Origin: Bacteroidia bacterium
Lineage (GTDB): Bacteria; Bacteroidota; Bacteroidia; AKYH767-A; OLB10
DNA: 62,427 nt
Assembly: GCA_016788065.1 (NCBI GenBank)
Contig: JAEUTI010000008.1
Coordinates: forward strand, 1-62,427
Direction of reading: 5' to 3'
Part shown: in pieces, positions 6,126 to 21,956 of the stretch
Numbering within the stretch: the first letter of the stretch is position 1
Layout: each line of letters starts with the position of its first letter
Program-made: the position numbers and the translations under genes
Notes under the pieces: model-generated
Told to the model about the DNA's origin: nothing
What the model saw: only the letters and a program-made list of their open reading frames with translations
Database searches by the model: none

Positions 6126-7001
6126 TCAGTAGTCCGGGCGAATTATTAGCAATTTATGGGCAGAAACAGTCCCGTCGTGATATAATTTCACAAAGTAGGA
6201 GCCAGGTGAAAGCATATTAACATCAAAAATGACGGGATTTTGTGAATTGGCGCCCATTCTCGTCAAAATAACTTTGCCTTGGGTATCGATTATGTCGATT
6301 CTGGAAAAACTTCCATTTTCAAGAATGAAGTAATTATTTGCAGGATTTGGAAATAGTTTGATGCCAGAAGCTGATTCATTGGGCTCGGAAATGGCAGTAT
6401 TGATGACACAATCCGTAATCTCATTAGCAGCAACATCACCATTCAGATAGACCTGTGAATCTTGAAAATCACTTAAGCACAACTCATTGTTCATTGAAGA
6501 TACAATGACATTGAATAATTTAGTTTCAGAAATTATCGGATTAGGTGAATATGACGTTAATCTGAGAATAGAGTCATTTGGGTTGAAATAGTACAAGTAA
6601 TTGATGGAAGGCTCGAGTGAAATCAGCGTATCAAATGTAATATTGGGTTGCTTAAATTTAATCGCAAAATCAACTGAATATATGGTGTTCGATGTTCTGG
6701 TGAAAATTGGAAAATTTATAGAGCTTCCGTTTTTTAAAGCATTTGCCAAGTCATAAACCAAAGTATCATACATGCTTGTGTTTCGATTGTTCCGATACGA
6801 AGATTCAAAAACATTTGAAATATAATTTTGAATTTCTGATACTGGAATAGAATCGGGAAGGATCAGTTTTCCTGAAGGAATATATTTTGATTCGGTTGTA
6901 CCCACTATTGCATTCCGGTTAGCCGCATAAATCGTCGGGCATGCAACTATTTGTAAGTATAGTGATGCTATTGTAAAAAGATATTTAAAAATTACTTTCA
7001 T
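6126..7001 (-). CDS. Secreted T9SS protein with cohesin-like domain
   Basis: I place the start at ATG 7001 (291 residues) because it opens with a signal peptide (MKVIFKYLF... IYAA); the frame extends upstream to 7064 without a signal-like sequence. After the signal comes a polar stretch, then a beta domain of about 110 residues beginning DTLVYDLANAL, with PIF, then VDFAIKF, and later YNYYFNPND-like and RLTSYS elements. The same pattern recurs in the proteins at 19829, 21192 and the C-terminal part of 16524, and resembles cohesin folds. The last ~75 residues (LFPNPANNYFIL ... GSYFVKLYHDG) are a T9SS type A sorting tail. It is divergent from the next block of surface proteins. Function unknown; adhesion or complex assembly is an inference. 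Confidence 0.8.
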   Translation of the reverse strand: MKVIFKYLFTIASLYLQIVACPTIYAANRNAIVGTTESKYIPSGKLILPDSIPVSEIQNYISNVFESSYRNNRNTSMYDTLVYDLANALKNGSSINFPIFTRTSNTIYSVDFAIKFKQPNITFDTLISLEPSINYLYYFNPNDSILRLTSYSPNPIISETKLFNVIVSSMNNELCLSDFQDSQVYLNGDVAANEITDCVINTAISEPNESASGIKLFPNPANNYFILENGSFSRIDIIDTQGKVILTRMGANSQNPVIFDVNMLSPGSYFVKLYHDGTVSAHKLLIIRPDY

Positions 7002-7015
7002 ACAGCCGGCTGTAT
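7000..7015. promoter_or_regulatory. 16-bp perfect palindrome touching the start codon of the 6126-7001 gene
   Basis: ATACAGCCGGCTGTAT reads the same on both strands and overlaps the first base of the minus-strand start codon at 7001. It lies between the predicted -7 element (7037-7044) and the coding region. It could be a repressor site or an RNA hairpin that hides the start codon. Confidence 0.4.
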
Positions 7016-7036
7016 ATAATATATATTGTCGGGCAA

Positions 7037-7044
7037 CAAATATA
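7037..7044 (-). promoter_or_regulatory. Predicted -7 element (TATATTTG) for the 6126-7001 gene
   Basis: On the minus strand TATATTTG matches TAnnTTTG exactly and lies 35 nt upstream of ATG 7001. It forms a divergent pair with the + strand element at 7240-7247. The 7002-7264 spacer holds nothing else that I can recognise. Confidence 0.45.
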
Positions 7045-7239
7045 TTTAAAATATACGATAGCACAACCTTAGGCAGGTTCAGTCATAAGTCTTTAAAGAA
7101 ACACCTGCATAGAATTAACACTTTCTTCATATATCGATATTTGAATTCTTATTTGAATATCAACTGCATGTTATGCAACATTTTTATGTCGTTAACGGAA
7201 TCTTAATATAAATATCAGTTTTACTTACCCTGTCAGCGG

Positions 7240-7247
7240 TAATTTTG
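7240..7247 (+). promoter_or_regulatory. Predicted -7 element (TAATTTTG) for the 7265 gene
   Basis: TAATTTTG fits TAnnTTTG exactly and ends 17 nt before ATG 7265. Almost the same geometry is seen before ATG 21192. Its position supports the start at 7265 over the upstream GTG at 7247. Confidence 0.45.
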
Positions 7248-7264
7248 TGCAAATATTGAATGAA

Positions 7265-8098
7265 ATGAAAGGGTATTTATTCTATTTAGGAATCATAGTT
7301 GTATTTGCAATTAATTTGAATGTGACCTGCGGGCATGGTTTGGATAGTATTTATGTAGAAAGATATTATGTTTCAGATAGTACCGATAAGTTGCTTTCAA
7401 CTCCTGATGCATTACCTGTTGGTTCTGTTACGTACCGAATATTTGTCTGCATGAAACCCGGATACAAGTTGCAGGCAGTTTATGGTTCTGAATATCATCA
7501 AATGACAATTGGATCCAGTAAACAAATATATAACCATCCTAATTACGGTAATTATATTCCAAACTTAATTCCTGATTATAGCCTAAGGTATAATACGGTG
7601 ATGCTTGATAGCTGGATCAGTATGGGGGCAGCCTCTATGGATGGATTTGGAATCCTTAAAAACCACGATGATACTGCTTCAACAGTTGAAAATCGTTTTA
7701 CACCGCCCATGTTACATAACACAAACGAAGGTATTGGTTTCCCTCTTTTTGAGAGAGATGGCATCCGTTTTAATAGCGGCAAACCACCGAGAGTGACTGC
7801 TATTGGATTGGACAGCTTGTTAGCGGATATGAATAAGTTTGTTGCGGGAACAGATTCAACCGGATATTATTTTAAAACCAACAATGGTGCATGGGCTTGT
7901 CTGGAGGGAGCAAAAAATGTGGATGGTACTCCTAATAATGTGGTTATTGCCCAGTTCACAACATCAGGTGATTTGCATTTCGAATTTAACATTCAGTTAG
8001 GAACACCTGAAGGTCAGGTCGAGCGTTTTGTTCACTCCAACCCAGATGCCAATGAAATTTTATTTCCCGCACTAAAATTCAATTCTAATAATCAGTAA
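7265..8098 (+). CDS. Secreted protein of the local repeated-domain family, no sorting tail
   Basis: A 277-residue protein with a signal peptide (hydrophobic to about residue 20, ending near TCGHG). The rest is a single domain shared with the proteins at 8327, 12561 and 16524. Matching landmarks are VERYYVSDSTD, PVGSVTYRIFV, a cluster around NTVMLDSWISMGA, FKTNNGAWACL, the strand pair IAQFTTSGDLHFEFN, and a closing FVHSNPDANEILFPAL. Unlike its relatives it stops right after this domain and has no T9SS tail, so it may stay periplasmic, be exported otherwise, or work with a tailed partner. I do not recognise a named family. Start chosen at 7265 because of the signal peptide and the promoter at 7240. 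Confidence 0.7.
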   Translation: MKGYLFYLGIIVVFAINLNVTCGHGLDSIYVERYYVSDSTDKLLSTPDALPVGSVTYRIFVCMKPGYKLQAVYGSEYHQMTIGSSKQIYNHPNYGNYIPNLIPDYSLRYNTVMLDSWISMGAASMDGFGILKNHDDTASTVENRFTPPMLHNTNEGIGFPLFERDGIRFNSGKPPRVTAIGLDSLLADMNKFVAGTDSTGYYFKTNNGAWACLEGAKNVDGTPNNVVIAQFTTSGDLHFEFNIQLGTPEGQVERFVHSNPDANEILFPALKFNSNNQ

Positions 8099-8326
8099 TA
8101 CACAATTTTTGTTGTTGATTTTATTTTCATTTAAGATTGCAATAGCATAAACGCGCTTTTAAACTAACTCGTTTTTAACCGAATGGTAAAGTTGAGTTGA
8201 TACACACTCAATTTATAATAATGAATTTTGAGCCCATCCAAACAGGGACATTAGCTCTTGTTTAGAAACCTCACTTCAGACTCTTATTCTTAAACAAATA
8301 TTTCTAATCAGTAAATAAATAAAAAA

Positions 8327-9406
8327 ATGAAAACACTAGTACTAACTGTATGCGCATTCCTGTTAACATTAACGGTAAATTCTCAGGGACTTGAGAATGT
8401 TATTGTTGAGAAGTATTATATCTCTGATGCGAATGATGCAACAGTAAATTCAACCGGAGGTGTGCTTCCTGTAGGATCTGTAACTTACCGGGTTTATCTC
8501 GATTTGTTACCCGATTATATTTTCCAGGCAGCATATGGTGATGGTAATCATGAATGTAGAATTGAAACTACAACTTTGTTTTTTAATAACGAAGATCGTG
8601 GTGCAACAACTCCAACTTTCAGCAAAAACTTCTGCGACGACAATACGGTGATGCTTGATTCATGGCTTTCTGTCGGAGCTGCTTGTGCTGCTAATTTTGG
8701 AGTTCGCAAAATTTATGACGATGGAGTAGCTACAGTTGTAAATAATGATGGTGTTCTGACTAACAATGATCCTTTGATTGGAATTCCTTTAACAGTTCAG
8801 GACGGGTTTCTGGCTGGGACTCCTCAACCTGTTACAGAAGTTGGTATTACTACTGAGATTGCTGTTTTCGACGCTCAGAATGATGGCACAAACGGCCCTG
8901 TATTCAGTACCAATAATGGTTCCTGGGCGTCGTTGAATGGTAGCTCCGGACCTGATCCGCTATTGAATGAAGTGTTGATTGCTCAAATCACAACGGATGG
9001 AATATTTTCTTTTCAATTAAATGTTCAAATCAGAAATAACATAACAAGTGTTGTAGAGAATTATGTAGCTTCAAATCCTGTAGGCAGTGAAGTGTTATTT
9101 CCTGCATTAAATTACAACTCAAGTACAGGTATCAATGATGCTTCTGAACAAACGTTCTCCATTGGTTTGTATCCAAATCCGGCAACTGATGTTTTATATG
9201 TACGGTTCAATAGTCTGAGAAGTAATGGGACTGCTACTTTTAAACTAATAGACATGTTAGGTAATGTTTTATCATCAAGGGAAGTTAAAACTACGCAAGG
9301 CTTATCTTCAGAAAAATTTGATTTGTCACAATTGTCAAATGGAATCTATTTCCTGGAAGTTGATCAGGATGGTGTTAGAAAAACAAAGAAAGTTGTTAAA
9401 CACTAG
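8327..9406 (+). CDS. T9SS-sorted secreted protein of the local repeated-domain family
   Basis: 359 residues: signal peptide 1-19, the shared domain at about 20-255 (VEKYYISDAND, LPVGSVTYRVYLD, FNNEDRG, NTVMLDSWLSVGA, STNNGSWASL, IAQITTDGIFSFQLNVQI, ENYVASNPVGSE), then a T9SS type A sorting domain from about 281 (LYPNPATDVLYV ... GIYFLEVDQDG). The tail implies export through the outer membrane and attachment to the surface or release. It opens a same-strand run of four genes (8327, 9463, 12561, 13915) with gaps of only 56, 41 and 19 bp that ends at the terminator at 14706. Domain function is unknown; its close copy at 16524 shows the longest identical stretches. Confidence 0.75.
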   Translation: MKTLVLTVCAFLLTLTVNSQGLENVIVEKYYISDANDATVNSTGGVLPVGSVTYRVYLDLLPDYIFQAAYGDGNHECRIETTTLFFNNEDRGATTPTFSKNFCDDNTVMLDSWLSVGAACAANFGVRKIYDDGVATVVNNDGVLTNNDPLIGIPLTVQDGFLAGTPQPVTEVGITTEIAVFDAQNDGTNGPVFSTNNGSWASLNGSSGPDPLLNEVLIAQITTDGIFSFQLNVQIRNNITSVVENYVASNPVGSEVLFPALNYNSSTGINDASEQTFSIGLYPNPATDVLYVRFNSLRSNGTATFKLIDMLGNVLSSREVKTTQGLSSEKFDLSQLSNGIYFLEVDQDGVRKTKKVVKH

Positions 9407-9462
9407 AACGGTACCTGCTGTAATCATTTCATAATCCTCAGATTTTATATTTTTTGAATCAA

Positions 9463-12400
9463 ATGAAGAAGTTACTTCTGTTGTTACTGAATTTACTTGT
9501 ATTCACCGGCTTTATATATGCTCAGGGTATCGTCCGCGGGAAGGTAACTGATGACATTGGTGAGCCGGTAGTAGGTGCAACCCTGGTTTTGAAATCCAGT
9601 CCAACAACAGGAACTATTACGGATTTTGATGGTAATTATACCTTTAAAATACCCGATTCAACATCACAGGTAATCGTGATATCATACATAAGTTTCCAGA
9701 AACAGGAAATTCCGGTTAAGGTAACTAACGGTCAGGTATTGATTAAGAATATTGTTTTGAAGTCTGCAACTCAGGATATTGGTGAGGTTGAGATTGTTGC
9801 CAAAGTTTCCAGGGAACGTGATGGTTATATGGAGAAGATGAAGATGAATTCCGCCTCTTCTGTTGATTACATTTCTACTGAAACTATTAAGAAGACCGGA
9901 GATTCATATGTTGTTGCTGCCGTAGCCAGGGTATCTGGAGTATCGACAACCAGCAATGGTTTTATTACTGTACGAGGTATTGGCGACAGGTATGTAAAAA
10001 CTACTTTAAATGGTAGCATGATACCAACACTGGACCCGTTCACCAACAATTTCAGGCTCGACCTGTTCCCTACAAGCCTCATTGATAACGTTTCTTTATT
10101 AAAAACGGCACGACCCGATATTCCCGGCGACTGGTCAGGAGCATATATCAATGTATTGACGAAAGATTATCCGGATCAGTTATCGGTTAATGTTGAAACC
10201 TCATTCGGGTACAATACCAATTCAACTTTTAAAGATGTTCTTACATCTCAAAAAAGCTCCACCGATTGGCTTGGTTATGACAATTCATTCCGTGATATTG
10301 ATCATGATTCCTACATATCTGTAATTGCTTCTCCCACACAATATCAGCAAATGGTAGCATTGGGCTTGGGTAATTATTTCAGCACTTTAGGTGTTACATC
10401 TTCCTGGCTTCCCGGTAGCGATGCCGGAGAGACTTATTTTAAATTGGGATTAGTTCAATTAGGACTCCTTGGGCCGGCTTTATTTAATGACCCTACAGCT
10501 GTTGCAGCCGCCAAAGATGAATTTATAAGTGGACAATACAGTAATCAGGCTTATACATCAATTAATACTCCTGGGGTTACCTCATCTCAAAAATTACCCA
10601 ACAACTGGAATACCAGTTATACAAAGGCTCCAATCGATTTCAGTCAGAGTTTCAGTATTGGAAATCAAATCGAATTATTTGGTAAACCATTAGGATTTAT
10701 CGGAGGATTCAGATACGCTAATAGCTATCGATATGATGATAACTCCGTATCAAACCGGGCATATGTTGATGTCAATGGTAATAGCGGAGTGGAAATAGCG
10801 GCTGTTCAAAAGGCTGCAGTTGAATCGAACGGATGGAGTGCATTGGCAAATCTGGCTTATAAATTGAATAGCAATAACAGTATTTCTCTGTTATTTATGC
10901 CCAACTTTTTAGGCGTTAACAAGGTGCGTGATATATCAGATCAGGGTACATCTCAATCTTATAATCAATCGTTGACGAAGAGTCAGTTCTATGAACAACG
11001 GAAACAATTGATTTATCAGTTGAAGACAGAGCATTTTATACCAAAATTTAAGGCAAAATGGGAATGGAACGGCTCTTATACAACCGGAAAAAGCAGTGCA
11101 CCTGATTTTAAATCATTGACATATTTTGAAGATCAGGGACAGTATTTGATCGATATCAAAGAATCGGATACACACAGATATTACAGATACCTTGATGAAA
11201 ATATGGTTGATGCATCAACTGCTATTGAAATTCCGATATTCACTAAGCCCGCTGTTACCAGAAAAATCAAAGTAGGAGGTGGGTATCAGAAAAATGACCG
11301 GTTAAGTGAACAATACGATTATAAAGTAATTTATAATGGAGGTGGTGATCTCATTATTGACAACAATGACATTGACAGTTATTTCGATTTGAATGAATTT
11401 GGATTCTATACCGATTCTTCCGGTTTAGTAACTATAGATAAATATTATGAAGAACCAAGAAATCCTGCAAATAACACTATCGGATACAGTGAAGTAATCA
11501 GTGGCTTTGTGATGTCAGATTATGCTGTTTCACCGGTTCTAAGATTTGCCGGAGGTCTTCGCATTGAGAATGCAGTTATTTTTACAGATGTTAAAAAGTA
11601 TGACGAATTGGGCTATGAAGCAAATGATCCCCGTCGTCAGTTTCCCGGAGAAATATTTACTGTAAATCCGGGATCCATTAAAGAACTTAGTTTTTTACCA
11701 TCACTGAGTGTGATTTATAAAATTGACGAAAGTGAAAAAAGTCCTATAACAGCCCGTTTAAATTATAGCCGCACTGTTGCCCGCCCGGGTATAAGAGAGT
11801 TATCTGATGCAGTTGTATTTGACTATGAAGTTCAGGATTTCATTTTTGGTAATTCTAATTTGAAGACTGTTTCAATTGATAATTACGATGCTCGTCTCGA
11901 GTATTATTTTAATAATGGTGATAATTTTTCGATTAGTCCGTTCTTTAAAAATTTCACGAATCATATTGAGTTGGTAAATACCAATCAGGGCTTTACCTGG
12001 CAGAATGTGGATAAATCAACCGTGCGCGGGATTGAACTGGAAGGAAGAAAGAAAATCAGCAAGAATTTCGATTTTTTAGGAAATGTGACGCTGGTAAAAT
12101 CTCAAACTGAATTTGTGCTTTATCGTTTGGAAGTTCAGGATGGTTTGAAGAATTATGTTCCAATTGATACAACTGAAAGAACCATGTTTGGACAGGCTCC
12201 ATTTGTGGTGAATGGAATTATTAATTATACTTCCGATAGTATCGGACTTTCTATTGCTTTAAGTTATAACATTCAAGGTAAGAAACTTGTATTTACAAGT
12301 ACTGATGGTACGCCTGATATTTTCGAAATGCCACGACATAATCTCGATCTTAAGATATCGAAAAAACTTGGTAAACATTTCAATGTAAGTCTTAAGGTTC

Positions 12401-12519
12401 AGAATATTCTGGATGAATCGACCAGGAGATCTTATATCTATGATAATGATGATACTCTCGACTACGATCGATATACCTATGGCACTACATATACTTTGGG
12501 CTTTAGTTATAAATTATAA
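9463..12519 (+). CDS. TonB-dependent outer-membrane receptor with carboxypeptidase-regulatory-like domain
   Basis: 1018 residues from ATG 9463 (a TTG three codons upstream is less likely). Order: signal peptide (MKKLLLLLLN...YAQ); CarboxypepD_reg-like beta sandwich at ~22-105 (GKVTDDIGEPVVGATLVLK, TDFDGNYTFKIP); plug domain from ~120 with VRGIGDRYVKTTLNG and ARPDIPGDWSG; then a long beta-barrel ending in aromatic YTLGFSYKL. No SusD-type gene follows, so this is not a standard polysaccharide-utilisation SusCD pair. Its neighbours encode secreted repeated-domain proteins, suggesting that the receptor imports or senses something they bind. Ligand unknown. The receptor call is firm; any role in export is speculation. 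Confidence 0.9.
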   Translation: MKKLLLLLLNLLVFTGFIYAQGIVRGKVTDDIGEPVVGATLVLKSSPTTGTITDFDGNYTFKIPDSTSQVIVISYISFQKQEIPVKVTNGQVLIKNIVLKSATQDIGEVEIVAKVSRERDGYMEKMKMNSASSVDYISTETIKKTGDSYVVAAVARVSGVSTTSNGFITVRGIGDRYVKTTLNGSMIPTLDPFTNNFRLDLFPTSLIDNVSLLKTARPDIPGDWSGAYINVLTKDYPDQLSVNVETSFGYNTNSTFKDVLTSQKSSTDWLGYDNSFRDIDHDSYISVIASPTQYQQMVALGLGNYFSTLGVTSSWLPGSDAGETYFKLGLVQLGLLGPALFNDPTAVAAAKDEFISGQYSNQAYTSINTPGVTSSQKLPNNWNTSYTKAPIDFSQSFSIGNQIELFGKPLGFIGGFRYANSYRYDDNSVSNRAYVDVNGNSGVEIAAVQKAAVESNGWSALANLAYKLNSNNSISLLFMPNFLGVNKVRDISDQGTSQSYNQSLTKSQFYEQRKQLIYQLKTEHFIPKFKAKWEWNGSYTTGKSSAPDFKSLTYFEDQGQYLIDIKESDTHRYYRYLDENMVDASTAIEIPIFTKPAVTRKIKVGGGYQKNDRLSEQYDYKVIYNGGGDLIIDNNDIDSYFDLNEFGFYTDSSGLVTIDKYYEEPRNPANNTIGYSEVISGFVMSDYAVSPVLRFAGGLRIENAVIFTDVKKYDELGYEANDPRRQFPGEIFTVNPGSIKELSFLPSLSVIYKIDESEKSPITARLNYSRTVARPGIRELSDAVVFDYEVQDFIFGNSNLKTVSIDNYDARLEYYFNNGDNFSISPFFKNFTNHIELVNTNQGFTWQNVDKSTVRGIELEGRKKISKNFDFLGNVTLVKSQTEFVLYRLEVQDGLKNYVPIDTTERTMFGQAPFVVNGIINYTSDSIGLSIALSYNIQGKKLVFTSTDGTPDIFEMPRHNLDLKISKKLGKHFNVSLKVQNILDESTRRSYIYDNDDTLDYDRYTYGTTYTLGFSYKL

Positions 12520-12560
12520 ATTAATAGGAGTGAAGTGAATTTAAAATCGGATAAATACTC

Positions 12561-13895
12561 ATGAAATATATAAAATTACTGGTACTTGTGATAATGTCAT
12601 TTACTTTATCACAAGTTACATATGGACAAATTGAGGATGTTATAGTCGAGAAATATTATATTTCAGATGCAAATGATGCAACCGATACCACGGAATTTAG
12701 ATCTGTGGCAGTTGGTTCAGTTACGTACCGTATTTATGTTGATCTTAAAGAAGGTTCCAGAATCAGAAAGATATACGGTGATACCTATCATGCATTAAAA
12801 ATTGAAAGTACACAGGATTTTTATAACAATATTGACCGACCTAATGCAAACTTTGGTTATCTGATAAATAAAACCTGGCTTGACGATAATCCAACACTGG
12901 CGCTGGACTCATGGATTACCCTTGGACTGGGAGCAATTGGACAGGCAGGCGTTTTGAAGCCTTCTGATACTGATGGATCATTTTTATTTCCAAATAATGG
13001 TGGTACCTATGGTGTTCCGGGAGGTTTATTGTTAAATAACAATCCTGATGCAGGTATAACCTTAAATAATGCCGATGGTTATGTCACGAACACTTCAACC
13101 TATGGTCAGTGGGTCGATTTTGGCTTTGAGGATATTGCAGGAGATGACACGACTGTTTTTGGTGCAATTAACACAGGAAATTCATTTGTAAGTAATGATA
13201 TTTATCTCCAGCAGAACGCAGGAGTCATGGGTTTCGATACGGTAAGTAATATAGTCCTGGTGGCGCAGTTAACCACAACTGGAGATTTGTCGTTTGAGTT
13301 GAACTTTGAAATAGAAGAAATTAACGGAGGGTCAACAAACATTGTTAAATATGTAGCTTCCAATGATACGTTGTTGCCCGGTGAAGTAGTTAGTCCGTTT
13401 TTGAAATATCCTTCTGTTTGTGGATGTACAGATCCCGATTATCTGGAATACAATAGTTCATTTGCATGTAGTGATGCTGCACAATGTTTAACACCGGTAG
13501 TTTTTGGATGTATGGATACGTTGGCATGTAATTATGATAGTCAGGCAAATTTTTCAATTCCTTCACTTTGCTGTTATCCGGGGTTGTGCAACGACAGAAA
13601 CCTGACATTGGTTTGTCCTGATATTTCAAATGGGCGATTTGGAATCATGGAAACAGCTCCAAATCCTGCTTCTGAATCTGTTTCATTTTCTATTTTTATG
13701 GACACCCAAAAATCGGGTTCGTTGAAAATATTTGATGTTTTTGGTAAATTAATTTACAAGGAAGAATTAACAGGTACAAGTGCCGTACAAAATAGAAAAG
13801 TTGACCTGAATGAATTCGCTAACGGTGTTTACATCGTTCATTTATTATCAGGTAATGATGTAAGTAGTACCAGATTTATTAAGAATTCTAATTAA
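12561..13895 (+). CDS. T9SS-sorted protein: repeated-domain family plus Cys-rich repeats
   Basis: 444 residues with a signal peptide (to about residue 22, TYGQ). The shared domain follows (VEKYYISDAND, VGSVTYRIYVD, ALDSWITLGLGA, VAQLTTTGDLSFELNFEI, KYVASNDT), with an insertion rich in G/N before residue 200. Residues ~290-350 carry two Cys-rich repeats of the type GC-x-D-x-x-Y/CNY (GCTDPDYLEYN and GCMDTLACNYD), a module frequent in Bacteroidota surface proteins. A T9SS type A tail begins near residue 365 (APNPASESVSF ... NGVYIVHLLSG). It lies 41 bp after the receptor gene and 19 bp before the FISUMP lipoprotein, so it is probably in the same transcript. Confidence 0.75.
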   Translation: MKYIKLLVLVIMSFTLSQVTYGQIEDVIVEKYYISDANDATDTTEFRSVAVGSVTYRIYVDLKEGSRIRKIYGDTYHALKIESTQDFYNNIDRPNANFGYLINKTWLDDNPTLALDSWITLGLGAIGQAGVLKPSDTDGSFLFPNNGGTYGVPGGLLLNNNPDAGITLNNADGYVTNTSTYGQWVDFGFEDIAGDDTTVFGAINTGNSFVSNDIYLQQNAGVMGFDTVSNIVLVAQLTTTGDLSFELNFEIEEINGGSTNIVKYVASNDTLLPGEVVSPFLKYPSVCGCTDPDYLEYNSSFACSDAAQCLTPVVFGCMDTLACNYDSQANFSIPSLCCYPGLCNDRNLTLVCPDISNGRFGIMETAPNPASESVSFSIFMDTQKSGSLKIFDVFGKLIYKEELTGTSAVQNRKVDLNEFANGVYIVHLLSGNDVSSTRFIKNSN

Positions 13896-13914
13896 TCTAT
13901 TAATACAAAATAAA

Positions 13915-14676
13915 ATGTTGATAAAATCGATTTTTCACTGTTGGAACTATTCTTCCAGAATATTAAACATGTTTTTTGTTATCTCTTTGGTTGTAGGATT
14001 CAGTTCTTGTGAGAAAGATTCGGATGAGGAAGAAGTTAAAGTTATTGAGACAGGTTCTGTGACTGATGCTTCCGGCATAACTTATAAAACAGTTAAAATA
14101 GGTGGTCAGTGGTGGATGGCTGAAGATCTAAAAACTACGGTCTACAGAGATGGTTCACCAATTACACAGTCTCAGACATTGGCATCATGGTCAACGGATC
14201 AGGAAGGCTATTGTATTTTCGAAAATAATCCTGCGGCACCCGGATTATTGTATAACTGGTATGCTGTAAATGATTCAAGAAATATTGCTCCTCAAGGATG
14301 GCGGGTTCCTACTGATCAGGACTGGAAAGTGCTGGAACAGTATCTTGGATTAAATGCTGCTGATGCAGATAAAACCGGATGGAGAGGAACAGATCAAGGC
14401 GAGAAACTCAAAAGTAAAGGAACTTCTGGTTGGCAACGCTTCGGTGATGTGTGGCCAACTAATTCTTCCGGTTTCACTGCTCTGGCAGGAGGTTGCCGAT
14501 TACCAAATGCAACATTTGGCAATCCCGGATTATTCAGTACCGGTTTTTGGTGGACAATTTCTGAGCATAATAGTGAAGAATCATGGTATCGTCATCTTGA
14601 TTATAAATCAAAAAACATTTTCCGTTACCATTCTGATAAGAATTATGGGTTTAGTATAAGATGTATAAAAGAATAA
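13915..14676 (+). CDS. FISUMP-domain lipoprotein
   Basis: 253 residues. The N-terminus has a hydrophobic segment and a lipobox-like end (VVGFSSC, Cys32), followed by the acidic stretch EKDSDEEEVK, so the mature protein is predicted to be lipid-anchored. The remainder is a Fibrobacter succinogenes major paralogous (FISUMP) domain: TYKTVKIGGQWWMAEDLKT, YCIFENN, LYNWYAV, PQGWRVPTDQDW, SSGFTALAGG, FWWTISE, and the closing GFSIRCIKE. FISUMP proteins are abundant surface proteins of unknown biochemical role. It is the last gene of the 8327-14676 run; a strong terminator follows after 30 bp. Confidence 0.85.
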   Translation: MLIKSIFHCWNYSSRILNMFFVISLVVGFSSCEKDSDEEEVKVIETGSVTDASGITYKTVKIGGQWWMAEDLKTTVYRDGSPITQSQTLASWSTDQEGYCIFENNPAAPGLLYNWYAVNDSRNIAPQGWRVPTDQDWKVLEQYLGLNAADADKTGWRGTDQGEKLKSKGTSGWQRFGDVWPTNSSGFTALAGGCRLPNATFGNPGLFSTGFWWTISEHNSEESWYRHLDYKSKNIFRYHSDKNYGFSIRCIKE

Positions 14677-14705
14677 AAGCTATCTTTTTATGTTTGTTGA
14701 TGTTG

Positions 14706-14732
14706 GTCCGGATTTATCCGGACTTTTTTTTT
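14706..14732 (+). terminator. Rho-independent terminator after the FISUMP gene
   Basis: GTCCGGAT (14706-14713), a two-base loop and ATCCGGAC (14716-14723) form a perfect 8-bp stem, followed by nine T residues. It ends the 8327-14676 operon. Confidence 0.9.
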
Positions 14733-14918
14733 GGGATAAGATGCAACACGAATATTTACTTTAATGTAGTTGTTAATCTTAACCTAACGTAAATGGTGCT
14801 CTTCTTTAACGATTTCATAAATTGAAACGCTAGGTGTAAACATGTTGACGGGGGATATTTGTGGTGTTCAAAAAAAGGAACTACTCTAAATCGAATTCTA
14901 ACCAATTAATCTAAAAAC

Positions 14919-16475
14919 ATGAAAAAAACAATGTCAAAAATGATGCTTACTGCACTTATCGCAGTTTCATCTGCTGCAACGGGAGTTGCACAAACTAACT
15001 TAGGCGCCGATTGCGGTTGTCCTGCGGTGGGAAGCCGTACATCTGTTAACATGTCAACACTTGCTGCTTCTGGTGGGACTACTGATGGTGACTTAACTGC
15101 TACCAACACTATCCTTACTTGCGACAAAATTTATGTGCTTGACAAAAAAATCTTTGTTCCATCTGGAAAATCAATTACCATTCAACCAGGTACTTTGATC
15201 AAAGCTAATACCAGTGCAACTCCAGGAGATGCAACTGCATTAGTAGTTTCAAGAGGTGGTAAAATCTTTGCAGCAGGAACACAATCTTGCCCAATCGTTT
15301 TCACTGCTGCTGCTGATCCAATGAACGGTACTTATGGTGTTACCAATCAGGGACAATGGGGTGGACTTGTAATCTTAGGAAAAGCTAAGAACAACCTGGT
15401 AGCAGGAAATACCCTTGCGATTTCTACCGGAGTTGGTATCATTGAAGGTTTTGCTACTGCTGATCCACGTGCTTATTATGGTGAAGCTCCAGGTTCTGAA
15501 GATGCAAATGACAATTCAGGTATTGTTCAGTATGTTTCATTGCGTCATGGTGGTGCTACAGTTGGACCAAACAATGAATTGAACGGTCTTACTTTAGGAT
15601 CAGTAGGAAGAGGAACTACTCTTGATCACATTGAAGTTGTTGCTAACAGTGATGACGGAATTGAGTTTTTTGGTGGAACTGTTGATTTGAAATATGGAGT
15701 TGTTATGTTCAATGATGACGATGGTTTCGACTGGGATCAGGGTTGGTCAGGAAAAGGACAATTCTGGGTTACTGTTAAAGTATCAGGTAAAGGTGATAAT
15801 GGTTTTGAAATTGATGGTGATGACAACACAAGCGGTGCTGCTCCACTTTCTCATCCATTCGTTTACAATGCAACATGCATTGGTGATGCAACTGATGCTG
15901 GTATTGAAGCAAAAGAACTTACTGAAGGCGAAATCTACAATTCTATCTTCGCAAATTATGCTCAAGGATTTAACTTGTACAACGTTCGTGCAGGTGGCGA
16001 CGTTTACGGAAAATGGAATGGTGGACAATTCAAAGTTAATAACAGTACTTTCATTGGTAACGTTGCTGGATTCACTATCCAAACTGCCGGTAACACTATT
16101 ACTCCTGCTGCTGGTGCTGATTTGACTAAATTCAATACTGATGGAAACGTTGTTGCTGCAACTGTACCAGGTTTTGATTTCGCATTCGCAATGAACCAAA
16201 CAACTAATGCAATTACTGATCAGTATGATGCTACTCCAAATCCAAGTCTTACAAGCAGCATTACTCCTCCGGTAGATGGTTTCTTTAAGCCTGTTACTTA
16301 CAGAGGCGCATTCGCTGATGGTGAAACTTCATGGATGACTAACTGGACTTATTCTGCATTCGTTGATGCATCAAATGGTCTGGTTGATTGCCCAACAGAT
16401 TTGAATGGTGACGGTATCACTAAAGTTGAAGATTTCTTGATCCTTGTAGGACAATTTAACCTGTCTTGCGATTAA
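14919..16475 (+). CDS. Secreted beta-helix-like protein ending in a dockerin-like EF-hand motif
   Basis: 518 residues with a signal peptide ending ATGVAQ (~25). The body is rich in G, N, T and A, with repeated short strands and turn motifs (IQPGTLIKA, SRGGKIFAAGTQSCPIVFTAA, QWGGLVILGKA, then NSDDGIEFFGG, FNDDDGFDW, NGFEIDGDDN), as in right-handed parallel beta-helix surface proteins. The extreme C-terminus is CPTDLNGDGITKVEDF followed by LILVGQF, a single Ca-binding loop plus helix like half a type I dockerin. There is no usual T9SS type A tail. Codon choice is strongly biased, as in the next gene, suggesting high expression. It is preceded by 242 bp without genes and followed after 48 bp by the 16524 gene. 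Exact function unknown. Confidence 0.75.
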   Translation: MKKTMSKMMLTALIAVSSAATGVAQTNLGADCGCPAVGSRTSVNMSTLAASGGTTDGDLTATNTILTCDKIYVLDKKIFVPSGKSITIQPGTLIKANTSATPGDATALVVSRGGKIFAAGTQSCPIVFTAAADPMNGTYGVTNQGQWGGLVILGKAKNNLVAGNTLAISTGVGIIEGFATADPRAYYGEAPGSEDANDNSGIVQYVSLRHGGATVGPNNELNGLTLGSVGRGTTLDHIEVVANSDDGIEFFGGTVDLKYGVVMFNDDDGFDWDQGWSGKGQFWVTVKVSGKGDNGFEIDGDDNTSGAAPLSHPFVYNATCIGDATDAGIEAKELTEGEIYNSIFANYAQGFNLYNVRAGGDVYGKWNGGQFKVNNSTFIGNVAGFTIQTAGNTITPAAGADLTKFNTDGNVVAATVPGFDFAFAMNQTTNAITDQYDATPNPSLTSSITPPVDGFFKPVTYRGAFADGETSWMTNWTYSAFVDASNGLVDCPTDLNGDGITKVEDFLILVGQFNLSCD

Positions 16476-16523
16476 TATTTATTAAATAAACCCAAACTTA
16501 ATAATTAGAAAAAACTTATCTAT

Positions 16524-19500
16524 ATGAAAAAATATTTAATTGGCTTATGCCTCTTATTATCAGGTACCTTCGTAAAGTCTCAGGGACTTGAAGGTATCGT
16601 TGTGGAAAAATTCTACGTGTCGAATGCCGCTGATGGCGCCGGCAGCGTGGGAACTCTTCCTCCCGGTTCAGTAACATGGAGATTCTATGTTGATATGGCT
16701 CCAGGATATATATTCCAGGCAGCTTACGGAGATGGTAACCACTTGCTTCGTTTCCAGACTTCTACTACCTTCTTTAATAATGAAGACAGAGGTTCTACCA
16801 ATGCAAATGCAATTGGTTTCAACTTTATCGATGACAACACAGTAATGTTGGATTCTTATCTTTCTGCAGGTGCAACTTGCAGCAACCGTTTCGGTGTTCT
16901 TAAATCAGAAGATGATGCAGTTGGCCAGGTGGTTAACAGCAACGGTTTATTGCAAAATGCTGATCCTTCTGCAGGTATTCCTTTGACTTCACGTGATGGT
17001 CAAACTGGTACTGCAGGTGCTCCTTCTGCATTCACAGAATTAGGTTTGGCTTCAGCATTGTCAGTATTAGATGCAACCAGCGGTGCAGGTTCTATCCTTT
17101 CAACTAACAATGGTTCTTGGGCTTCTTTGGCTGGTGCTTCCGGTCCAACTGCTACTAACCGTGTTTTGATTGCACAAATCACAACTGATGGTGTATTACA
17201 GTTCGAACTTAACGTTCAGATCCGTAGTGCTTCTAACGTGGTTGAGAATTATGTTGCTTCAAACCCTGTTGGAACTGAGCAAGTATTCGCAGGTTTGTCT
17301 GGAACTTTGAACCAGGCTAACGCTTCTCCTACAATTTCTATTACTGCTCCTACTGCAGGAAGTACTTATTTAACCGGAGATCCTGTTACTATCGATGCAA
17401 CAGCTGCTGATGCTGATGGTACAATAACTAACGTTCAGTTTTTGGTTGATGGTGTTGTAGTTGGTAGTGATGCTACTGCTCCTTATTCATTTACATGGAC
17501 CAGCACTGTTGGTTCTCATTCATTAACCGCTCGTGCAACTGATGATTTAGGCGCTCAAACAACTTCTTCTCCAGTTGGAATTACAGTTGGTAACGTTATT
17601 GCTCCAACTGTTGCTATCACTTCTCCAACTTCAGGATCAACATTTGTTCTTGGTGACGTAGTAAATATCACTGCAAACGCTAATGATGCTGATGGAACTG
17701 TTTCTCAGGTTGAATTCTTTGTAAATGGTGTTTCTGTTGGTGTTGATGCTACTGCTCCTTATGCATTTGCTTGGCAGTCAGTAGTTGGTAACTCAAGCTT
17801 AACTGCTGTAGCTACTGATGATGATAACGCTACCGGAACTTCTGCTCCAATTTCTATCTCTGTATTTGATTCAAGCAGCGCTTACGTTATTTCAACTTCT
17901 TCAAATCCTTGCTCTGCAAATACATTCTGCCTTCCAATCGTTGCGATCACTCCAGTTAATGATGTAATCGGATACGATATCGTTCTTGAATACGACAATA
18001 CTAAGGTTCTTCCTTCTGGTGTTGTTTCTGTTGGTAACGCTTTAATCAACCCTGCTATCACATCAACTGCTAACAGCATTGATAACGCAAATGGTAAAAT
18101 GTACATTTCTGTGTTCTTCAACGCTTCTGCACCAATTACTGCTGAATTTAATGGTTCAGGACAGTTATTGTGTGTTGAGTTTACAAGAACTGCCGGATTC
18201 AGCTCTGTTGATACTGCTGCTTTCTCTGTATCTTCTTTACAGGAAAGTTATTTCAATGGTGTACTTCCTAAAGTTGTTAGTCCAGGAGAATATATTACCT
18301 TCCAGGAAAGTGACTATACAAGCAACTTGAAGTTCTGGTTTGATGGTAGCCCAATCCGCTACAATCCAGCTGTTCCAACTGATTATGTTATCACTAACAT
18401 CTATGGATCTAACTTAACTTGTACTTCAATTTCAGCTACTGCTGTTCAACCTGATTTAGCTGGTAATTTCACTTACGATATCGCTAACGGTCCTTCAATC
18501 GATATCCGTAAAGATATCCCTGCAACAACTTCTGTTCAACCTGTAGTTAACGGATTTGATGCATTCCTTACCCGTCGTGTTCTTATCAACGATCCTACTT
18601 ATATCCCTTCAGTTTATTCATTAATCGCAATGGATGTTAATATTGATGGTGTTGTGAGTGCTGGTGACTTGTCACAGATCAATCAGCGTGCTGTTTTGAT
18701 CCTTGGAGAATTCAGACAAGCATGGAATTACTCTGCAGGTGGTGTTTCTAACGGTGAACTTTCAAAAGACTGGTTGTTCGTTGATCAAACAACTTTGAAC
18801 TCTGATCCTTCATTTATTATTTCTGCAAACTTCCCATTCCCTGATGGAGCTGGATATGATAAATCAAATGTTCCAGTTCTTGATTTCTGTATTGAAGTTC
18901 CTGTATTCTCTTCTCCTTCATGCTCTGTATTTGGAATCGAATCTTATACAGGTATCTTAATGGGTGATGTGAATGGTAACTATGCAACTGTTGTTCCTAA
19001 CGGAGCATTCCGTACTGCTGCTAGCGATAAAATGGTTTTCGATCTTACTAAAGCTGTTGTTGAAAATGGTGTAATTGAAGTTCCGGTTTATGCTACTGCT
19101 GCTGAAACTGTAAATTCACTTGACTTCGCTATGATGTTCAATGGTTCTAAAATGTCTTTCAAAGAAGTTAGAACTAATGAAAGTAACTTAGAGTCATTAT
19201 CTTTCTTCAACACTGCTGATCAGGCTTTACGTTTCACTTCTTATAGCCTTGAGTCAATTGATCTTACTAAATCTGTTGGATCAGTTATTTTCGAAACAGC
19301 TGCTGAATTAACTGCTGATGACTTCAATTCAATTGAAGCATTTATCAATGGTGAAAGAGTTGCTGCTGAAGTTATCGGAAATCGTGCTGCAGTTAGTGAT
19401 GTAATGGTAAATGTTTACCCTAATCCTGCTTCTTCTTCAATCAATGTACTTCTTTCTGAAGATGCTTCAGTTGAGATCTTTGATATGAACGGAAAAGTTG

Positions 19501-19631
19501 TTGTTTCTGAATCAGGTGTGAAAGCATTTGAGAAGTATTCTATCAATACTCAACATCTTGCAAAAGGTGTTTATACTTTGAAAGCTTCTAATGCAGGTTT
19601 CGTTACTGTTCAAAAAGTAGTTATTCAGTAA
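16524..19631 (+). CDS. Large modular T9SS surface protein (repeated domain, two Ig-like, two cohesin-like, dockerin-like)
   Basis: 1035 residues. Order: signal peptide 1-19; shared family domain ~20-258; two Ig-like (Big_7-type) repeats at ~266-355 and ~359-450, each with a P-T-x-x-I-T-x-P-T opening, DADGT and VGSDATAPY/VGVDATAPY; a first cohesin-like domain ~452-592 (GYDIVLEYDNTKVLPSG); a linker with the dockerin-like loop DVNIDGVVSAGDLSQINQR at ~703; a second EF-like DVNGN near 814; a second cohesin-like domain ~834-945 (DKMVFDLTKAV, SLDFAMMFNG, LRFTSYSLE); and a T9SS type A tail from ~963 (VYPNPASSSINVLL). Codon use is biased like its upstream neighbour. It is probably abundant on the surface and a scaffold or adhesin candidate; no enzyme motif seen. 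Confidence 0.8.
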   Translation: MKKYLIGLCLLLSGTFVKSQGLEGIVVEKFYVSNAADGAGSVGTLPPGSVTWRFYVDMAPGYIFQAAYGDGNHLLRFQTSTTFFNNEDRGSTNANAIGFNFIDDNTVMLDSYLSAGATCSNRFGVLKSEDDAVGQVVNSNGLLQNADPSAGIPLTSRDGQTGTAGAPSAFTELGLASALSVLDATSGAGSILSTNNGSWASLAGASGPTATNRVLIAQITTDGVLQFELNVQIRSASNVVENYVASNPVGTEQVFAGLSGTLNQANASPTISITAPTAGSTYLTGDPVTIDATAADADGTITNVQFLVDGVVVGSDATAPYSFTWTSTVGSHSLTARATDDLGAQTTSSPVGITVGNVIAPTVAITSPTSGSTFVLGDVVNITANANDADGTVSQVEFFVNGVSVGVDATAPYAFAWQSVVGNSSLTAVATDDDNATGTSAPISISVFDSSSAYVISTSSNPCSANTFCLPIVAITPVNDVIGYDIVLEYDNTKVLPSGVVSVGNALINPAITSTANSIDNANGKMYISVFFNASAPITAEFNGSGQLLCVEFTRTAGFSSVDTAAFSVSSLQESYFNGVLPKVVSPGEYITFQESDYTSNLKFWFDGSPIRYNPAVPTDYVITNIYGSNLTCTSISATAVQPDLAGNFTYDIANGPSIDIRKDIPATTSVQPVVNGFDAFLTRRVLINDPTYIPSVYSLIAMDVNIDGVVSAGDLSQINQRAVLILGEFRQAWNYSAGGVSNGELSKDWLFVDQTTLNSDPSFIISANFPFPDGAGYDKSNVPVLDFCIEVPVFSSPSCSVFGIESYTGILMGDVNGNYATVVPNGAFRTAASDKMVFDLTKAVVENGVIEVPVYATAAETVNSLDFAMMFNGSKMSFKEVRTNESNLESLSFFNTADQALRFTSYSLESIDLTKSVGSVIFETAAELTADDFNSIEAFINGERVAAEVIGNRAAVSDVMVNVYPNPASSSINVLLSEDASVEIFDMNGKVVVSESGVKAFEKYSINTQHLAKGVYTLKASNAGFVTVQKVVIQ

Positions 19632-19660: not shown

Positions 19661-19696
19661 AACCGGGCTGTCCGTTCATGACAGCCCGGTTTTTTT
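19661..19696 (+). terminator. Strong Rho-independent terminator after the 16524 gene
   Basis: AACCGGGCTGTC (19661-19672) pairs perfectly with GACAGCCCGGTT (19680-19691); the T-run continues to 19696. It closes the 14919-19631 pair. Confidence 0.92.
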
Positions 19697-19828
19697 GTTA
19701 ATATAAATGCATGTTTTGCTTAATATTATCTTAAGTATATATCATTTTTGATTATTTAAACCAATTAGTTACCAATAGTAATGTTACGGTAACACTTTTA
19801 AATGTTGCCATTTTTACTTTTACACGAA

Positions 19829-21106
19829 ATGAAATACCCCAGAAAATATAGTAATGTTGATACCGGAATTAATTTGGTATGGCTACAATTCGTTGGGCTT
19901 TTTATGCTTTTTATAACTATAACCGGTTCGGTAAAGGCAAACGACAATTTCTTTATTTCTAATCAGGATACTATAATATTTGATTTTTCTAATGCTGTTT
20001 GCGCGTCAGGTTATATGGAAGTGCCAGTTCGTTTTAATTCGGATGAACAGGTTTATGCAATGGACTTCGCATTAAAGTTTAATCCTGCAGTCTTTACATA
20101 TATTTCTGTTACCACTCATAAAGCGTACTTATCTGTATCTGCAAACTACAATAGTGGAGATAGTACATTGCGATTTTCTTCCAGTAGCCTGCAGGTTATT
20201 GATAATAACACAACCCTGGTTTCTGTTAGATTTTCATTACCTGTTTCTCAAATTGATTATGCTGATTTTGTTTCTGTATATACATTACTTAATGGTGACG
20301 ATTGCAGTGCCAAAGCTATTGAACCATTACCTGCCGGTAACATTACACCCGGTGGCGATACTTCTATTCTTCCCGGTGATTCACTCTCATTAAGTTTTGT
20401 GCCTAATCCTGCATTAAGCTATGTCTGGTCTACCGGACAAACGAATAGCACTATTTATGTCAATGCTCCCGGAATTTACTCGCTAACTACTTTTTATGGA
20501 AATGGTTGCCAGACGGTAAATTCGATATTGATCACTGAAGCAAATCCGTTGCCTGTTACTTACCTCTATTTTGATGCATTTCAGGATGGAGAAAATGTTG
20601 AAGTTGTATGGGCCACTGCTACCGAATTGAATTGTAACTATTTTAATATCGAAAGAAGTTCTGATCTGAAAGACTGGATAACGCTTGCTTCCGTGGAAGG
20701 GGCCGGAAATTCAAACACTGTGACAGATTATACTTTCGCGGATATTAAACCTTTATCCGGACTAAATTATTACCGGTTAAAACAAGTAGATTACAACGGA
20801 GAATTTAGCCATTCTCTGGTGATTGCTGTCGATTTTGATACTCCGCTTTCTGAAACGGAACTTAAAATCTTCCCAAATCCTGTTTCCGGAAATACAATTC
20901 AGTTTAAAAATCGGGGATTTAATGCAAGCACTGTTTCGGTGCGACTAACAAGCATATTGGGAAAGTCCTTTGAGGTGCAACAAGTTGAATATCAAAATAA
21001 TATAGGAGTGGTCACTCTGCCCGACGCCATGGCAGATGGTTTCTATTTTATTACTGTTTTAGATGGGTTTAAAACGCTGTCAACTCCATTTTTCTTTAAT
21101 AAATAG
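19829..21106 (+). CDS. T9SS secreted protein with cohesin-like, Ig-like and FN3-like modules
   Basis: The start at ATG 19829 (425 residues) is preferred over 19802 because a TACTTTTA element (19815-19822) lies within the longer reading. A hydrophobic export segment (~20-38, GLFMLFITITGSVKA) is followed by a cohesin-like domain from ~47 (DTIIFDFSNAV, MEVPVRF, AMDFALKFNP, LRFSSSSLQ, LNGDDCS). Next come an Ig-like segment around 195-235 (YVWSTGQTNS ... GCQTVNS) and the FN3-like module common before T9SS tails (VEVVWATATE, YFNIERSSD, YYRLKQVDYNG). The tail starts LKIFPNPVSG. The signal is unusual in lying some 20 residues from the start. It is 85 bp from the next, related gene. Confidence 0.75.
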   Translation: MKYPRKYSNVDTGINLVWLQFVGLFMLFITITGSVKANDNFFISNQDTIIFDFSNAVCASGYMEVPVRFNSDEQVYAMDFALKFNPAVFTYISVTTHKAYLSVSANYNSGDSTLRFSSSSLQVIDNNTTLVSVRFSLPVSQIDYADFVSVYTLLNGDDCSAKAIEPLPAGNITPGGDTSILPGDSLSLSFVPNPALSYVWSTGQTNSTIYVNAPGIYSLTTFYGNGCQTVNSILITEANPLPVTYLYFDAFQDGENVEVVWATATELNCNYFNIERSSDLKDWITLASVEGAGNSNTVTDYTFADIKPLSGLNYYRLKQVDYNGEFSHSLVIAVDFDTPLSETELKIFPNPVSGNTIQFKNRGFNASTVSVRLTSILGKSFEVQQVEYQNNIGVVTLPDAMADGFYFITVLDGFKTLSTPFFFNK

Positions 21107-21191: not shown

Positions 21192-21956
21192 ATGAAAAAT
21201 TATTACACACTCATAGTTGTTTGCTGCTCATTGCTGCTATTAACAGGCTTGAAAGGATTTGCTCAGGAGGCAAAATTCAACTCACAAGGAAATAATCCAA
21301 ATACATTGGTAATCGATAGTCAGGATTCCGTTTTTTTCGATTTATTCAATGCAACTGTTGTTGGATCCACAATCGATTTTCCGGTTTATGTCAAATCGGA
21401 TGATGTAATTAATGCGTTGGATTTTTCATTTAAGTATAATGAAAATGAATTGGAGTATGATACTATTTTAAACCTGACGAATTATATTCAACATTTGTCA
21501 TATTACAATCCCGGCGACTCCACAGTTCGATTTACTTCTTATAGTTTTACCCAACCTTATACAGCCGATACACCTTTGGTAATAGTAAGATTTACTTTAT
21601 TGACAGGTGTTTTTTGCAGCAATGACCTGCTGAATGCAGAAGCATTGCTTAATGGTGATGGTTGCTCAGAAAAAATTATTGAATGTCAATCAACAGGTAT
21701 CGCTGATGAATTTAATGAAACATCTGTTAACTTTTACCCTAATCCTACAGATAAAACATTATTTATTGATGTAGATAAAAAATCGGATTTGGCAATCTAT
21801 GATATTTCAGGAAAGAATTATCTGATTAATTTTCCACTGGAAGAGAATTTCACCAATGAAATTCCTACTCACAATCTTGCAGAAGGTGTTTACTTCCTGA
21901 AAATTAATTATGAAAAGAAAGTGGTTGTTAAAAAATTGGTTATACAACACTATTGA
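21192..21956 (+). CDS. Short T9SS secreted protein with a single cohesin-like domain
   Basis: 254 residues: signal peptide (LLLLTGLKGFAQ, ~25), a polar spacer, then one cohesin-like domain from about residue 48 to 160 (DSVFFDLFNATV, DFPVYV, ALDFSFKYNENELEYD, YNPGDSTVRFTSYSF, LNGDGCSEK) and a T9SS type A tail from ~180 (FYPNPTDKTLFI ... GVYFLKINYEKK). It shares the pattern FDL-NA-V, then LDF-F/L-K/MF/YN, then RFTSYS with the 6126, 16524 and 19829 proteins. It is the minimal member of the group and a good model for the domain. It is followed by a bidirectional terminator. Confidence 0.8.
   Translation: MKNYYTLIVVCCSLLLLTGLKGFAQEAKFNSQGNNPNTLVIDSQDSVFFDLFNATVVGSTIDFPVYVKSDDVINALDFSFKYNENELEYDTILNLTNYIQHLSYYNPGDSTVRFTSYSFTQPYTADTPLVIVRFTLLTGVFCSNDLLNAEALLNGDGCSEKIIECQSTGIADEFNETSVNFYPNPTDKTLFIDVDKKSDLAIYDISGKNYLINFPLEENFTNEIPTHNLAEGVYFLKINYEKKVVVKKLVIQHY

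Follow-up and report, generated by a model that had tools for sequence, protein, structure and literature searches.

Genes and features of the locus

The DNA analysed here is a stretch of 62,427 nucleotides from a Bacteroidia bacterium (Bacteroidota; Bacteroidia; AKYH767-A; OLB10; GenBank assembly GCA_016788065.1, contig JAEUTI010000008.1, positions 1 to 62,427), and the whole of it is referred to as the window. It carries a cassette of seven genes in the order A, B, TonB-dependent receptor, C, FISUMP, beta-helix protein and D (Table 1), in which A to D are copies of one N-terminal domain, the N-domain, with different additions. The cassette is probably a SusD-less TonB acquisition system of the outer membrane that is controlled by the phosphate (Pho) regulon and serves during phosphate starvation, and it would likewise be best understood as an elaborated relative of the Flavobacterium low-phosphate modules made of a TonB receptor and an FI/FII beta-helix protein. 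Homology, conservation of the cassette, Pho neighbours, promoter repeat and distribution of the secretion tails were all computed directly.

Table 1. Features of the cassette and its surroundings in the window (T9SS, type IX secretion system)
Feature	Position	Strand	Remarks
Copy A	7265..8098	+	N-domain, signal peptide, no T9SS tail; probably periplasmic
Copy B	8327..9406	+	N-domain about 8384-9124; T9SS type A tail at residues 281-359
TonB-dependent receptor	9454..12519	+	CarboxypepD_reg_2 and plug; no SusD partner
Copy C	12561..13895	+	N-domain, Cys-rich GCTDPxxxxY repeats, T9SS tail
FISUMP lipoprotein	13915..14676	+	Lipobox SSC; acidic/lysine stretch behind the Cys; possibly surface-exposed
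Beta-helix-type secreted protein	14919..16475	+	Relative of FI/FII/FIII low-phosphate proteins
Half-dockerin, 28 residues	16389..16472	+	Single EF-hand-like loop flanked by two Cys; extreme C-terminus of the beta-helix protein
Copy D	16524..19631	+	N-domain 16524-17318, two Big_7, cohesin-like region, further modules, T9SS tail
11-bp direct repeat TTAACGGAATCTTAA	7192..7206	+	Candidate PhoB-type box upstream of gene A
-7 element TAATTTTG	7240-7247	+	Its TTTG lies 52 bp from the first TTAA of the box
Terminator-like hairpin	14705..14724	+	3' of the FISUMP gene; from a consensus scan
Strong terminator-like hairpin	19661..19691	+	After D
Second 11-bp TTAA repeat	19720..19734	+	Upstream of the cohesin protein at 19802
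Cohesin-domain protein	19802..21106	+	Weak T9SS tail; in several other genomes a relative lies behind D
Cohesin-domain protein	21192..21956	+	T9SS tail; relatives follow D in loci L131 and L133 and lie near D in L123
T9SS-tailed protein, divergent	6126..7064	-	Related cohesin-like region; only a candidate associate of the cassette

The N-domain and the secretion of its carriers

The open reading frames of the four copies were confirmed. Their N-terminal portions of about 250 residues aligned end to end in blastp with 31-55% identity, the strongest pair being B and D (E 3.8e-87, 55% identity) and the weakest pairs being C with A or D (E about 1e-29, 31-35% identity; about 6e-29 for C with D). 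The four segments are true homologues beyond doubt, as had been proposed in a note made from the window's letters (the original prediction), and the ordered landmarks named there were found. That note knew no named family for the domain, and the searches agree: single N-domain sequences had no match in Pfam, NCBIfam or PHROG, no consistent Pfam match was obtained over 137 N-domain relatives, and no sequence match existed in PDB. The two outcomes that it listed as refuting its reading, a strong match to a known family with a defined role and segments failing to align above chance, were both absent.

Eleven columns are invariant in the 137-member alignment (E28, Y31, D37, R55, D111, D131, D159, G160, Q220, G225 and N232 in the numbering of copy B, the 8327 protein), and five of them are acidic. 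AlphaFold2 run on these 137 sequences predicted a beta-sandwich with a long, ordered, loop-rich insertion at residues 63-180 (predicted local distance difference test, pLDDT, 95.7; predicted template modelling score, pTM, 0.93); a model from only four sequences had a pLDDT of 49 and was discarded. The genome of this bacterium contains exactly four N-domain copies, all inside the block 7265-19631, and the suggestion that they share one common ligand or partner is plausible.

The four proteins, all called secreted in the original prediction, are not all alike in this respect. According to the T9SS sorting domain models TIGR04183/PF18962, B and C and their orthologues carried a T9SS type A tail in 37 of 37 cases and the D orthologues a T9SS tail in 13 of 13; copy A and its 33 orthologues had none (0/34), and ten of the A orthologues bore an Ig-like Big_7 extension in its place. 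The conserved tails suggest that T9SS carries B, C and D to the cell surface. For copy A, which has a signal peptide but neither lipobox nor T9SS tail, the simplest placement is the periplasm, where it probably stays. A Lys/acidic stretch followed the lipobox Cys in about half of the FISUMP orthologues; such a stretch is reminiscent of the signal known to direct Bacteroidota lipoproteins to the surface. Family scans and the lipobox also agreed with the original prediction of a SusD-less TonB receptor and a FISUMP lipoprotein, since no SusD was detected within the cassette in the Pfam and NCBIfam scans of its proteins. The receptor has a SusC-like N-terminus.

Conservation and distribution of the cassette

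A scan of 84,980 species genomes returned 203 encoding stretches, from which 71 distinct loci (the L numbers below) were retained. The order found in the window recurred in dozens of them with 30-60% identity, and the TonB receptor was central in nearly every complete cassette. Within the order to which the bacterium belongs, the cassette came as a block or not at all: the N-domain was present in 19 of 37 genomes, usually in three to six copies (exceptions being one genome with nine and one with a fragment only), and absent from the rest. Across the phylum it occurred in 3 of 394 evenly drawn genomes, the present one included; a fourth match (G443) was antisense to a peroxiredoxin gene and was rejected as spurious.

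The tree of the copies grouped them largely by position, cleanly for A and C and mostly for B and D. Because of this grouping the copying is read as old and the unit as a conserved cassette; judged from their sequences, A to D are old paralogues and positional orthologues across genera and not a local expansion. Recent local duplication was rejected on this ground, and the description of the block as copying within a gene block was misleading. The accompanying idea of a dedicated surface system holds, in that all four copies lie here and their order is kept in dozens of genomes. Taken as a whole, the original prediction is partly supported; it did not include the link to phosphate starvation, the beta-helix partner with its half-dockerin, or the probable periplasmic place of copy A. 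A distant member (G104) holds a receptor, seven N-domain copies and a beta-helix protein, and so the domain keeps the same partners even under an altered layout.

The carriers include many Bacteroidota of water and soil. Most of those found were metagenome assemblies, many with lake or pond in their record titles. Phosphorus is often limiting in lakes and ponds. The literature on cohesin or dockerin together with TonB, and on FISUMP, yielded nothing about the present system.

Two sets of neighbours deserve mention. In L035, L036, L040, L042, L043, L045 and L047 a run divergent from the cassette encodes sulfotransferase-like proteins, a flippase, a polymerase/ligase-like protein and glycosyltransferases, and resembles a sulfated exopolysaccharide locus. 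In one lineage (L083, L088, L093, L098 and L099) a large membrane protein resembling O-mannosyltransferases of the tetratricopeptide repeat type lies in or beside the cassette, most often accompanied by an extra OMP_b-brl_2 barrel protein.

Association with phosphate genes

Neighbours of the Pho type were met beside cassettes in other genomes, including phoB/phoR, pst/phoU/OprO-P, phoX, plcP-agt and ppk-ppx, and they span different lineages. In comparisons with curated models, PstS and PhoU scored over the cut-off and Porin_O_P and PhoX over the gathering threshold; for PhoB and PhoR the corresponding models were best or near-best, below the equivalog cut-off. The plcP-agt neighbours form a PlcP/Agt-like lipid-remodelling pair. 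Of the 71 contig loci, many of them with short flanks, 15 had Pho genes close to the cassette. When only loci with longer flanks were considered, such genes were found in 5 of 10, whereas 20 controls of 20 kb each, taken from these genomes, contained none (p 0.002). The Pho query proteins came partly from the surveyed loci, where exact matches are consequently not independent; independent Pho relatives with 36-60% identity were present at L051, L090, L097, L123, L124, L131 and L133.

The same link appeared outside the cassettes. In the bacterium's own genome a second pair of TonB receptor and beta-helix protein lies directly behind phoB-phoR-ppk-ppx (L117), and its receptor gene is preceded by the TTAA repeat described below four times in register, in relaxed form. 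The window receptor is paralogous to this PhoBR-linked receptor. In a second genus, 29 of 31 genomes had a beta-helix relative; at 15 of the 19 loci examined there, this relative forms a pair with a receptor next to phoB-phoR, frequently accompanied by Agt, OprO/P or pst genes, and 12 of 17 receptor promoters had the repeat. Elsewhere in the own genome, pstB-phoU occurs without adjoining pstS, pstC or pstA (L116, G000:C83).

Promoter repeat and transcripts

PhoB-type regulators bind 11-bp direct repeats, as established for E. coli PhoB. TTAA-N7-TTAA, which has this spacing, was found in 22 of 37 non-redundant regions upstream of cassettes, with 3.2 expected and the observed number reached in 0 of 200 shuffles. 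Spacings of 9, 12 and 13 were at chance, and those of 5, 16 and 22 were mildly raised as parts of the same repeat. A first control made from genes flanking the cassettes (26/132) was unsuitable because it took in shared divergent promoters as well as Pho genes, and distant stretches were used instead; there only 7 of 192 promoters had the repeat, as against 22 of 37 (p 3e-15). The distance from the box to the TTTG of a Bacteroidota-type -7 element was 52-53 bp in seven loci, and 40-41 bp before phoB and pstB.

A pattern search for Pho boxes in the 4.26 Mb own genome gave five occurrences of the stricter form TTAAYNNTNNCTTAAYNNT, of which three precede phoB, pstB-phoU and a lone receiver-domain regulator and two lie elsewhere. 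The lone regulator (L159, G000:C40:94364) has relatives adjoining cassettes in L058, L071, L081 and L102, and could possibly be an extra component of the Pho circuit. The plain TTAA repeat had five sites in the window. A site at 45851 of the window lies in a coding start region and was regarded as chance.

As a terminator-like hairpin and a gap of 242 bp separate them, 7265-14676 and 14919-19631 may form two transcripts; the number of hairpins in the scan overall was no higher than in shuffled sequences. The gene at 19802, behind the strong terminator and the second repeat, may be transcribed separately under Pho control.

The beta-helix protein and its C-terminal half-dockerin

The beta-helix protein, which was not listed in the original prediction, belongs to the core of the cassette and gives the main clue to what the cassette does. 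Its homologues include beta-helix proteins linked to phoBR, both in the own genome and at 15 phoBR loci of the second genus. Paralogues of it that lie outside cassettes have an ordinary T9SS tail at the C-terminus; the window protein has none in the family scan. In every cassette with a readable end, the orthologue terminates instead in the motif C-PTD-[IL]-N-x-DG-x-T-x(3)-DFL-x(5)-F-x(2)-SC or in a close variant without the Cys. The tail occurs once in the own genome. Within the order, 15 of the 19 genomes that have the N-domain also have this tail, as against 0 of the 18 genomes lacking the domain (p 5e-7). A type I dockerin has two EF-hand repeats that bind a cohesin, and the half-dockerin here has a single one. 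Tandem half-dockerin motifs were also seen in proteins of 1954-3476 residues in some cassette genomes (G041:C269:183619, G037:C42:10045 and G006:C14:289203).

Around the cassette there are four cohesin-like domains that are related to one another (E 1e-10 to 1e-31), located in D at 18987-19376 and in the three further proteins of Table 1 that begin at 6126, 19802 and 21192. Copy D contains, besides this domain (residues 822-951), a weak dockerin (residues 675-721). Because a weak dockerin and a cohesin-like domain with relatives at 19802, 21192 and 6126 occur together in D, docking of the cohesin-dockerin kind is a natural idea, and it is hypothesised that the half-dockerin may bind the cohesin-like domains of D and its neighbours and replace the T9SS tail as surface anchor.

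A further secreted protein of the window, unrelated to the cassette, has 932 residues with three repeat units of about 165 residues, a PKD-like domain and a T9SS-type tail (38181-40979, minus strand).

A proposed phosphate-starvation acquisition system and its known relatives

Assignment of the cassette to the Pho regulon is suggested by the Pho neighbours, the promoter repeat and the PhoBR-linked pair of receptor and beta-helix protein taken together. When phosphate is short, PhoB-type regulators would act at the 11-bp TTAA repeat before A, and B, C and D, once exported by T9SS, would hold a phosphorus ligand excluded by porins beside the receptor, together with FISUMP and the beta-helix protein, which may be anchored through its half-dockerin. 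The SusD-less receptor would then import this phosphorus-containing ligand, and periplasmic copy A, with the same domain, would receive it. The ligand would most likely be an organic phosphorus compound or a polymer, given that pst and porins take care of orthophosphate and that TonB receptors are used for large ligands. Polyphosphate is one candidate among several because ppk-ppx lies near the own pair and near the cassettes L124 and L131.

Several observations weigh against this interpretation. Apart from the promoter repeat, no Pho gene was found in the window, and PhoX is absent from the own genome. No phosphatase or diesterase is among the cassette proteins, PhoX or PlcP being seen solely beside some other cassettes. 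Strict repeats were missing from 15 of the 37 cassette promoters, and unrelated neighbours, e.g., sulfotransferase and flippase genes, occur at some loci. Membership of 14919-16475 in the FI/FII group is deduced from the layout and from the resemblance to the PhoBR-linked paralogue in this genome, and the choice of ligand is hypothetical. The N-domain fold gives no functional hint either: Foldseek returned nothing significant (best E 0.096), the best structural scores were Z 5-5.6 (at most 5.6), which are common to many beta-sandwiches, with cohesins just below, and the PDB and viral fold libraries gave weak, tied beta-sandwich matches only.

The closest known system is that of Flavobacterium johnsoniae, in which the TonB-dependent transporter (TBDT) and FII of Fjoh_0541-0546 are strongly induced on depletion of inorganic phosphate (PMC8115612). 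Its phosphate utilisation system (PUS) IV, or PUSIV, comprises phoBR, the TBDT Fjoh_0545 and the lipoprotein FII Fjoh_0546, and FII has a pectin-lyase-type fold (PMC8115612). Like the cassette, PUSIV has a TonB receptor adjoining a beta-helix protein, a Pho neighbourhood and no SusD; it is a pair, whereas the cassette has seven genes with four N-domain proteins, FISUMP and the half-dockerin. Compared by layout, the 15 of 19 loci of the second genus and the L117 pair correspond to Fjoh_0541-0546. PUSIII (FI Fjoh_3856, a TBDT and two T9SS proteins) also joins a TBDT, a beta-helix protein and T9SS proteins in one low-phosphate cluster, but differs in having its own sigma factor and FecR-like regulator, and a cluster of PUSIII-like layout (L196) contained no N-domain protein at E 1e-3. 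PUSI/II feature a PusD/SusD partner and a phosphatase; both are missing from the cassette, which is therefore not of this type. What the cassette shares with the PUS group, and in particular with PUSIII and PUSIV, whose way of working it probably resembles, is the outer-membrane TonB receptor and the FI/FII-type beta-helix protein.

FI-FIII have been reported as relatives of the Caulobacter phosphate-starvation lipoprotein ElpS (PMC8115612), and in Caulobacter crescentus ElpS (CC0170) pairs with the TonB receptor CC0171 (PMC2996285). By description this is again an extracellular phosphate-starvation protein paired with a TonB receptor; it differs in being a lipoprotein secreted by the type II secretion system in Alphaproteobacteria, without N-domain proteins.

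Alternative explanations

Cellulosome scaffolds resemble the cassette in that a single locus combines cohesin-like domains with dockerin-type EF-hand loops; they differ by their paired dockerin repeats and cellulases, in place of which the cassette has a single half-dockerin and no cellulase, and docking here is hypothetical. The cassette could be thought of as a Pho-controlled surface scaffold or adhesin whose extracellular layer, built of the N-domain, Ig, cohesin and half-dockerin proteins, fixes starving cells to particles, the TonB receptor being incidental or a sensor. The Ig, cohesin and dockerin modules in D, the cohesin proteins downstream, the half-dockerin of the beta-helix protein and the exopolysaccharide/sulfotransferase loci adjoining the cassette in some genomes would suit this function. 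However, the receptor sits in the middle of nearly all complete cassettes, the paralogous pair beside phoBR exists without scaffold proteins, and copy A lacked a surface signal in all genomes tested, so we regard a scaffold as unlikely, although it survives better than the other alternatives.

Systems of the SusCD kind share the logic of surface capture and TonB import, but an ordinary SusCD locus was considered and rejected, as no SusD adjoins the receptor and capture is assigned to T9SS cargo whose domain is unrelated. An unusual polysaccharide utilisation locus, importing a sulfated or phosphorylated glycan as a carbon source, is a variant of this idea. It could account for the SusC-like N-terminus of the receptor, for the pectin-lyase-like beta-helix partner (PMC8115612) and for the GH5-like and sulfotransferase neighbours of a few genomes, which were named by eye. 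Family scans, however, revealed no carbohydrate-active enzyme among the cassette proteins, SusD is missing as well, and neighbours and promoters indicate phosphate rather than carbon; a glycan locus is accordingly improbable.

That the receptor exports the tail-less copy A and beta-helix protein, in the manner of the Myxococcus TonB-type receptor Oar, which is needed for PopC secretion (PMC6434023), has the two tail-less proteins and this precedent in its favour, but import is the normal role of TonB receptors, and beta-helix paralogues that accompany a receptor of this type rely on a T9SS tail; this explanation is very improbable.

Significance

The acquisition system proposed here can be extended, tentatively and with considerable doubt, to the idea that the N-domain is a new family of phosphorus-ligand-binding beta-sandwiches that a single operon deploys at the outer membrane, A on its inner side and B to D on its outer side, and that is organised on the surface by cohesin and half-dockerin together with a TonB importer. 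If true, this would be a modular phosphorus-scavenging complex with a logic comparable to a cellulosome joined to a SusCD importer.

The TonB and beta-helix core parts were already known, and what is new is a probable expanded Pho-type TonB system built on an unnamed domain. Bacteroidota are known to have TonB receptors induced at low phosphate, with abundant beta-helix partners, and for the question of how phosphorus enters through their outer membrane the cassette supplies a defined set of parts around the receptor/beta-helix pair. The promoter motif predicts which genes are phosphate-controlled, and the presence of the unnamed domain in four fixed versions simplifies tests of ligand binding and localisation.

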